Assembly (NCBI GenBank): GCA_000961575.1 | Contig: LADP01000001.1 | Span: 1-64,000, forward strand | Length of the DNA stretch: 64,000 nt | Source of the DNA: Peptococcaceae bacterium BRH_c8a | GTDB taxonomy: Bacteria > Bacillota > Desulfotomaculia > Desulfotomaculales > Desulfallaceae | Direction: 5' to 3' | In this document: positions 3,437 to 48,654 of the stretch, in pieces | Position numbering within the stretch: the first letter of the stretch is position 1 | How the letters are laid out: the number at the start of each line of letters is the position of its first letter | The notes under the pieces: generated by a model | Database searches by the model: none | Told to the model about the DNA's origin: nothing | The model's input: only the letters and a program-made list of their open reading frames with translations | Translations under genes and position numbers: made by a program

Positions 3437-3462
3437 GGTTTTAGATTGTCAATATAATATGT

Positions 3463-3598
3463 TTTACCCGCCGTAGACAGTTTGGTGCCCCTTTAGGGCT
3501 TAATGGCCAGTCAGCCGCCAGCCGAGGCCGGAGTATTGACCCCAAAGCGTTTGCTTTACGGGCCTCTGGCATGCTGTTCTCGCGCCGGAGGCTTTTTT
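3463..3598 (+). ncRNA. L10 leader (autoregulatory mRNA leader of rplJL)
   Basis: The segment between rplA and rplJ has the recognisable L10 leader blocks: CCGTAGACAG followed by TTGGTGC, then a GCCGAGGCCGG block and a TTGACCCC-type linker. In Firmicutes the L10(L12)4 complex binds this RNA to control its own synthesis. The leader ends in a complete intrinsic attenuator (3562-3598). Assignment rests on motif recognition, not on a covariance search. Confidence 0.75.
3562..3598 (+). terminator. Attenuator of the L10 leader
   Basis: GCCTCTGGC (3562-3570) pairs fully with GCCGGAGGC (3584-3592, one GU pair) and is followed by six T residues. It lies before rplJ and after the L10 leader core, so it is best read as a conditional terminator controlled by L10 binding. 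Confidence 0.8.
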
Positions 3599-3603
3599 GG
3601 TGC

Positions 3604-3743
3604 TTGGTGCCAGGTGTTGCAAGTTTAATTTGTTGCAAATCTGCGATTTGCAACAAATTAAACTTGCAACACCTGGCACCAAAGCCAACCACCAAGCCAA
3701 CTCGCAACAAACCACAACTTGCAACACCTGGCACCAACACGGA
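3604..3743. repeat. Family A hairpin repeat, copy A1 plus half-site
   Basis: Two 38-base arms (3604-3641 and 3645-3682) are perfectly complementary around the loop TGC. The outer part is the shared core TGGTGCCAGGTGTTGCAA; the inner part (GTTTAATTTGTTGCAAATC) is specific to this copy. A right-arm half-site with the same core ends at about 3741. It lies between the L10 attenuator and the rplJ ribosome binding site. Confidence 0.9.
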
Positions 3744-3771
3744 AAAGACAGGCCCAAAGGAGGTGTACATA

Positions 3772-4311
3772 TTGCCGATTAGCAGACAGGAAAAAGAAGA
3801 GTTGCTACAGGAACTAAAAGGAAAAATGGAAGCGTCACAATTAATTATCCTGGCCGAGTACAAGGGACTGAACGTTGAAGCCATGACCAAGCTGCGCCGC
3901 AAACTGCGTGGTGTGGGCAGCGAGATTAAAGTGGCCAAGAATACCATTACCAAATTAGCCGCCCAAGAAGCAGGCCTGGAAGAACTTAATACTTATCTGG
4001 AAGGCCCCGTGGCCATGACCTTTGGTTTTGATGATCCGGTGGCACCAGCCAAGGCGATGAGCGACTTTGCCAAGGAATATAAACTGCTGAATATTAAAGC
4101 CGGTATCCTGGAAGGACGTATTATCGACCCCCAAGCTATTAAGGCTCTAGCGGACCTGCCCTCGCGGGAAGTGCTGCTGGCCCAAGTATTGGGCGGCATG
4201 CAAACTCCCATGTATGGTTTTGCGGGCGCACTACAAGGTCTCTTAAGGAACCTGGTTTATGTGCTTGACGCCGTGCGGGAGAAGAAAGCAGAAGAAGCAG
4301 CAGCAAGTTAA
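3772..4311 (+). CDS. rplJ: 50S ribosomal protein L10
   Basis: L10 anchors the L7/L12 stalk to the large subunit. The 179-residue protein begins (TTG)PISRQEKEELLQELKGK and has the usual conserved block YKGLNVEAMTKLRR and the helical C-terminal L12-binding tail. The TTG at 3772 follows AAAGGAGGTG. Longer in-frame extensions run through the family A repeat and are not real. Expression is probably controlled by the L10 leader and attenuator upstream. Confidence 0.95.
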   Translation: MPISRQEKEELLQELKGKMEASQLIILAEYKGLNVEAMTKLRRKLRGVGSEIKVAKNTITKLAAQEAGLEELNTYLEGPVAMTFGFDDPVAPAKAMSDFAKEYKLLNIKAGILEGRIIDPQAIKALADLPSREVLLAQVLGGMQTPMYGFAGALQGLLRNLVYVLDAVREKKAEEAAAS

Positions 4312-4467
4312 AAGTGTGATGAAAAATCACGCTAAGCTTTTATAAACAGACCTGCAGACTAAGGGAGTAAGAATGAAGAGTGGTTTATCATCTTGAATTA
4401 TTCTGAATTCTGACTACTGAATTCTGACTACTAAAAAAATACCCTTAAATTCAAGGAGGTTTATTAA

Positions 4468-48560: not shown

Positions 48561-48562
48561 TG

Positions 48563-48641
48563 TAGGGGCACCCCTCGCGGGTGCCCGGTATACGCATCCC
48601 CCCGCAATAATTAATTGGGGCACCCGCAAGGGGTGCCCCTA
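48563..48641. repeat. Long inverted repeat after the thiolase
   Basis: TAGGGGCACCCCTCGCGGGT plus GCCC (48563-48586) pairs with 48618-48641 with one mismatch. This GGGGCACCC/GGGTGCCCC repeat type is common in bacterial genomes. A half copy lies at 4920-4936. It may end the thiolase transcript although no T-run is present. Confidence 0.8.
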
Positions 48642-48654
48642 CGGATGACAATCG

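Follow-up and report, generated by a model that had tools for sequence, protein, structure and literature searches.

The rplJ upstream region of Peptococcaceae bacterium BRH_c8a raises the question of whether a perfect palindrome, lying between an L10-responsive attenuator and the gene it controls, is a regulatory element of this ribosomal operon or a mobile sequence that is merely tolerated there. The stretch of DNA analysed (hereafter the window) comprises the first 64,000 nucleotides of contig LADP01000001.1. The initial annotation had described a 38-bp perfect hairpin and an extra half-site of a repeat family, inserted after the L10-controlled terminator and ahead of the rplJ ribosome binding site. 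It had also proposed that transcripts passing the attenuator would carry this hairpin, which might shield or expose the ribosome binding site or serve as a processing site.

A palindrome behind an ordinary L10 leader

The description of the insert is borne out by the coordinates (Table 1), by the complementarity of the arms at 38 of 38 positions around a 3-nt loop (3604-3682) and by the exact match of the half-site. As single-stranded DNA the palindrome folds with -46.4 kcal/mol (z -15), a value reached by 0 of 200 shuffles, and it is therefore not a product of chance. On its right-hand side it bears a GGCTTT-type tail, which reads AAAGCCAACC at 3681-3690. The upstream attenuator is an ordinary member of the L10 leader family RF00557, scoring above the gathering threshold and placed before rplJ; the repeat lies outside the leader, beginning 5 nt past the T-run of the terminator, which is unaltered. 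At the other end, the TTG start codon at 3772 is preceded by AAAGGAGGTGTACATA and is conserved across relatives.

Table 1. Features of the region upstream of rplJ, in window coordinates, and examples of the 65-nt subfamily of the same repeat elsewhere in the genome
Feature	Position	Strand	Basis or remark
L10 leader RF00557 (L10-binding attenuator upstream of rplJ)	3453..3607	+	cmscan 50.4 bits, gathering 44
Leader terminator hairpin and T-run, intact	about 3562..3598	+	RF00557 alignment and structure line; conserved in relatives
Palindrome left arm, one terminal inverted repeat	3604..3641	+	core 3606-3622; matches 37-nt terminal inverted repeat of transposase element
Palindrome right arm, second terminal inverted repeat	3645..3682	-	core 3664-3680
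One-sided tail GGTTGGCTTT	3681..3690	-	variant of family tail GGTAGGCTTT
Extra half-site, solo terminal repeat without second arm	3716..3737	-	22/22 exact copy of outer half
rplJ Shine-Dalgarno and TTG start codon	3756..3774	+	AAAGGAGGTGTACATATTGCC; conserved in relatives
rplJ (ribosomal protein L10)	3772..4311	+	PF00466, E 1.1e-29; G002 orthologue 92% identical
65-nt subfamily examples	L037:1966-2030, L047:2018-2082, L044:7644-7708, others		

Several other identities for the insert were set aside. Translation through the repeat, suggested by a rplJ frame that is open from 3571, is disfavoured by the conserved Shine-Dalgarno sequence and TTG codon and by the lack of the extension in relatives. 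A role as a second terminator was rejected because no T-run follows the palindrome and a scan found no terminator there, and matches of the hairpin to Rfam microRNA families fell below the gathering scores and reflect generic long-stem similarity. Separately, two copies of a heptad-type repeat, CTGAATTCTGACTA, lie between rplJ and rplL (window 4403-4430); they are akin to a TGACTCC/TGACTTC family, which is represented at 71 sites in this genome and occupies the rplJ slot in another genome of the order (G007).

A consensus scan of the interval between the repeat and rplJ found no promoter, so that read-through RNA would carry the hairpin, as the initial annotation had anticipated. The suggestion that the hairpin shields or exposes the ribosome binding site, by contrast, was not supported by folding with and without the palindrome. 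With the leader included, the mean unpaired probability of the Shine-Dalgarno sequence was 0.20 both for the full repeat and after removal of the palindrome, and 0.17 after removal of the whole repeat, values inside the range (0.01-0.36) seen in relatives that have no repeat. The palindrome is thus predicted neither to hide nor to expose the ribosome binding site. When the leader is omitted, the extra half-site may mildly lower accessibility (0.34 against 0.65 in the equilibrium model).

A dispersed repeat family and its candidate transposase

The half-site is not confined to rplJ. Within the window, a 19-nt form, TTGGTGCCAGGTGTTGCAA, occurs 18 times with up to three mismatches, against 0.02 expected. 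A search of the 4.17-Mb genome for a 17-nt core, with one mismatch allowed, gave 140 matches, against 0 for a reversed control pattern. Terminal repeats of this family (Family A) are also represented as GGTGCCAGGTGTTGCAA. In the genome stretches examined, the half-sites are mostly arranged in inverted pairs, giving 41 doublets and 30 single sites. The doublets fall into size classes of 65 nt (19 nearly identical copies), about 75 nt (including the rplJ copy), 57, 42-45 and 27-28 nt, and a GGCTTT tail is found on exactly one side in 33 of the 41 and on both sides in none. Gene-context classes derived from long open reading frames proved unreliable, as these frames run upstream through the repeats, and were left unused.

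Two further observations concern the range of such repeats. The 65-nt doublets share a conserved one-sided flank of 30 nt, TAAACGAATACAACTTTCTGGTTGGGCTTT, mostly with TTAC opposite, and this subfamily seems to have been active most recently. A separate 25-nt inverted repeat (GTAGGGGCACCCCTCGCGGGTGCCC and its complement) occupies window positions 48562-48642 and adjoins a solitary Family A half-site (48658).

The genome holds two Y1_Tnp genes, one of which (C25:80943-81899) is flanked by inverted half-sites. Together they form an element of 1,066 bp with 37-nt terminal inverted repeats that are identical to each other at 36 of 37 positions; the arm of the rplJ palindrome spans this 37-nt repeat, with the same length and a sequence equal up to a few bases. 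The encoded protein matches PF01797 (57 bits) and contains both the HUH motif (HVH) and the Y---NP motif (YIHLNP). It also matches the TnpA-REP structure 4er8 (E 1.1e-4) and scores 77.9 bits against NCBIfam REP_Tyr_transpos, just below the cut-off of 80. Its C-terminal region resembles Bac_DnaA_C weakly, as do those of two orthologues (E 0.028 here, 0.0044 in the sister species G002 and 1.6e-4 in G004, all under the gathering score). The second Y1 gene (C21:82256-82708, L033) encodes a protein with a DnaA-C-like C-terminus that scores above the REP_Tyr_transpos cut-off; no Family A repeats were found around it.

Orthologues of the flanked transposase occur in G002 (83% identity), G004 (59%), G008 (55%) and G005 (53%, with one stop codon), and half-sites flank them in the same layout, so that transposase and repeat are linked in five genomes. 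The repeat at the transposase takes the variant form GTTGAAA in G004 and G008 and GCCGGGTGTTGAAA in G005. GTTGAAA forms number 15 in G004, 23 in G008 and 73 in G005, against 5 each in BRH_c8a and G002, and the variant flanking each orthologous transposase is the one abundant in its own genome. From this covariation of repeat with transposase we infer that the transposase acts on Family A repeats. The linkage is not absolute, since G012, G015 and G003 contain half-sites but have no closely related transposase. In G012 and G015 (family f1, genus g6), respectively, one form of the half-site was counted 47 and 11 times and the GTTGAAA form 122 and 37 times.

History of the slot and perfection of the arms

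The sister species G002, a metagenome-assembled genome named Desulfotomaculum sp. BL5_bin.2, carries the same palindrome at the same place before rplJ. Its assembly breaks inside the palindrome, but its arms are identical to those of the window, with the loop reading TA instead of TGC; an extra half-site stands to the left of the palindrome and is absent at the right-hand position occupied in the window. In G003 a decayed solo repeat adjoins the rplJ ribosome binding site. No palindrome was found before rplJ in G001, Desulfoscipio or Desulfotruncus alcoholivorax, and outgroups have a short empty slot. Relatives without the repeat thus exist, which upholds the earlier reading of the family repeat as an insertion between terminator and ribosome binding site. 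Because G002 shares the palindrome and G003 retains a remnant, whereas G001, Desulfoscipio and D. alcoholivorax are without it, the insertion most likely dates from within the genus, as judged from these alignments. Neither a target-site rule nor an exact empty site could be defined for it.

Other inserts are found at this position across the order. By distances computed by hand, the leader lies 50 nt or less from the L10 domain in 52 of 90 genomes and at least 110 nt from it in 22 of 90. In G007 the slot is filled by the unrelated TGACTCC/TGACTTC dispersed family (142 genome copies), in G028 by an unrelated dispersed GTTGGGGACATTCCT family (116 copies), and several other long slots fold into long hairpins. 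The slot between leader and rplJ tolerates or retains repeats. It seems very unlikely that a strong hairpin is useful in the spacer between attenuator and ribosome binding site, for example as a point of processing at which attenuator and translated mRNA are uncoupled, and that unrelated palindromes were for this reason recurrently retained and co-opted several times in the order.

A 38-bp duplex is a plausible substrate for RNase III, and processing at the palindrome is possible. The hairpin might accordingly be kept as a cis-acting RNA element, at which RNase III or a similar nuclease would separate the attenuator from the rplJ-rplL mRNA and set its stability. A perfect hairpin would be present in read-through RNA, no promoter is predicted between it and rplJ, and unrelated hairpin-forming inserts occupy the slot in other genera. 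Furthermore, BRH_c8a and G002 have identical copies of the two 36-nt arms, against 89% identity in the leader and 84% in the downstream spacer, and this divergence of 11-16% in the flanks leaves room for purifying selection on the arms. However, other palindromes of the family in this genome are just as perfect, so that perfection is no peculiarity of rplJ; orthologous sites elsewhere have likewise retained perfect arms; and the congeners G001 and G003, with most of the order, manage without a palindrome. We consider a maintained processing site distinctly unlikely, and the idea is not needed to explain the hairpin.

Among the BRH_c8a doublets of 72-76 nt, six of seven have mismatch-free arms over 35-38 bp, and the arms differ between elements. 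At sites common to BRH_c8a and G002, where flanks are mostly 81-93% identical, both copies are usually still perfect although their arms or loops differ, and three pairs of the same length differ at one stem position in both arms. Compensatory arm changes have been reported for REPINs (Bertels and Rainey; PMC3116915). On these comparisons the near-perfect arms are a property of the element, not of rplJ; as perfect arms are general in the family, the perfect rplJ hairpin needs no explanation specific to rplJ and is no evidence for a role there.

The arms may be kept perfect by selection, by correction through template switching or by repeated transposition. Alternatively, fold-back DNA synthesis (template switching) on solo repeats might generate the palindromes without any transposition, with repeated correction keeping them perfect. 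In favour of this, a solo repeat in BRH_c8a (L035:4009) occupies the position at which G002 has a perfect doublet with the same arm (L135:3449), a possible solo/doublet conversion; loops and arms change together between the species at common sites; and the rplJ arm variant also occurs in a solo repeat (L045:10949). Such a process leaves the dispersal to about 70 places and the one-sided tails unexplained, and the 65-nt subfamily, with its conserved flank, has clearly dispersed as a unit. As a replacement for transposition it is unlikely, but repeated correction could act alongside it.

We therefore regard it as likely that the rplJ insertion is a miniature non-autonomous mobile element, composed of two head-to-head TIRtron terminal repeats without a transposase gene and accompanied by one solo repeat, which a Y1/HUH transposase would have mobilised with a near-neutral effect on rplJ. 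The C25 transposase, or an ancestral copy, would have recognised the repeats in single-stranded form and, while BRH_c8a and G002 were still one lineage, carried the dimer into the spacer that follows the L10 terminator. Lying past the regulatory RNA but ahead of the ribosome binding site, this would be a landing site of low insertion cost. Read-through transcripts should bear the hairpin, with L10 attenuation and rplJ initiation expected to proceed as in relatives without the palindrome. Most likely, then, the palindrome before rplJ is a passenger that the operon tolerates rather than a new regulator.

Relation to TIRtrons, REPINs and MITEs

The closest known kind of element is the TIRtron, with its TIR-associated tyrosine transposase (TIRYT; RAYT group 1, TnpA-REP subclass 2.1), and the rplJ palindrome is a dimer of TIRtron-type ends that lacks the transposase. 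The terminal repeats of TIRtrons may disperse singly, as dimers and in clusters (Di Nocera, 2013; PMC3733652), and TIRYTs are probably equivalent to TnpA-REP subclass 2.1, to which nearly all members of RAYT group 1 belong (PMC6006769). We found no description of TIRtrons or TIRYTs from this clade in the literature searched, and a search for REPs in Firmicutes or in ribosomal leaders gave nothing relevant.

In these relatives of Desulfotomaculum, a TIRYT-type family has repeats whose sequence changes along with the transposase and reaches some 140 sites in one genome, and one copy sits in the 5' leader of a ribosomal operon that is essential and autoregulated. The case also counsels caution, since a perfect leader hairpin need not be regulatory where the whole family keeps perfect arms at any location. 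Finally, as the two sister species share sites at which both arms have changed, the upkeep of perfection in mobile palindromes becomes directly testable.

It appears decidedly improbable that the rplJ repeat is a classical GTAG-type REP or REPIN moved by a canonical RAYT. The inverted hairpin doublets, the solo copies, the one-sided tail (often GGTAGGCTTT) and the link to a Y1 transposase all recall such systems. However, a single half-site forms no REP hairpin, folding not clearly better than its shuffles (z 0.58 for 27 nt, -1.44 for 47 nt). GTAG does not precede each unit: the tail is one-sided, contains GTAG in some copies only (GTTG at rplJ), and the motif is also missing from the ends of the transposase element. 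In addition, the weakly DnaA-like C-terminal extension is of the kind described for subclass 2.1/TIRYT (PMC6006769).

The Family A element thus resembles several known systems to different degrees. Like REPINs (Bertels and Rainey, 2011; PMC3116915), it is a non-autonomous inverted doublet that forms a hairpin, with an asymmetric tail, changes on both arms and solo copies as remnants, but its single unit is not a GTAG-tagged palindrome. As in bacterial MITEs such as RUP and NEMIS, it is short, has no transposase, forms a long hairpin and belongs to a type often co-transcribed with neighbouring genes. Bacterial MITEs are usually mobilised by double-strand transposases, whereas a single-strand Y1 transposase is implied here. 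With TIRtrons it shares a Y1/HUH transposase, long terminal inverted repeats that closely flank the gene and are unrelated to GTAG REPs, and repeats scattered as singles, dimers and clusters. Where TIRYTs have a C-terminal helix-turn-helix extension resembling Bac_DnaA_C, HTH_23 or HTH_28, the transposase here has a C-terminal region with sub-threshold similarity to Bac_DnaA_C. It differs from them in having no GGGGWSAS motif, which is common in the published set, and in its roughly 140 sites, where the published TIR families are called moderately abundant.
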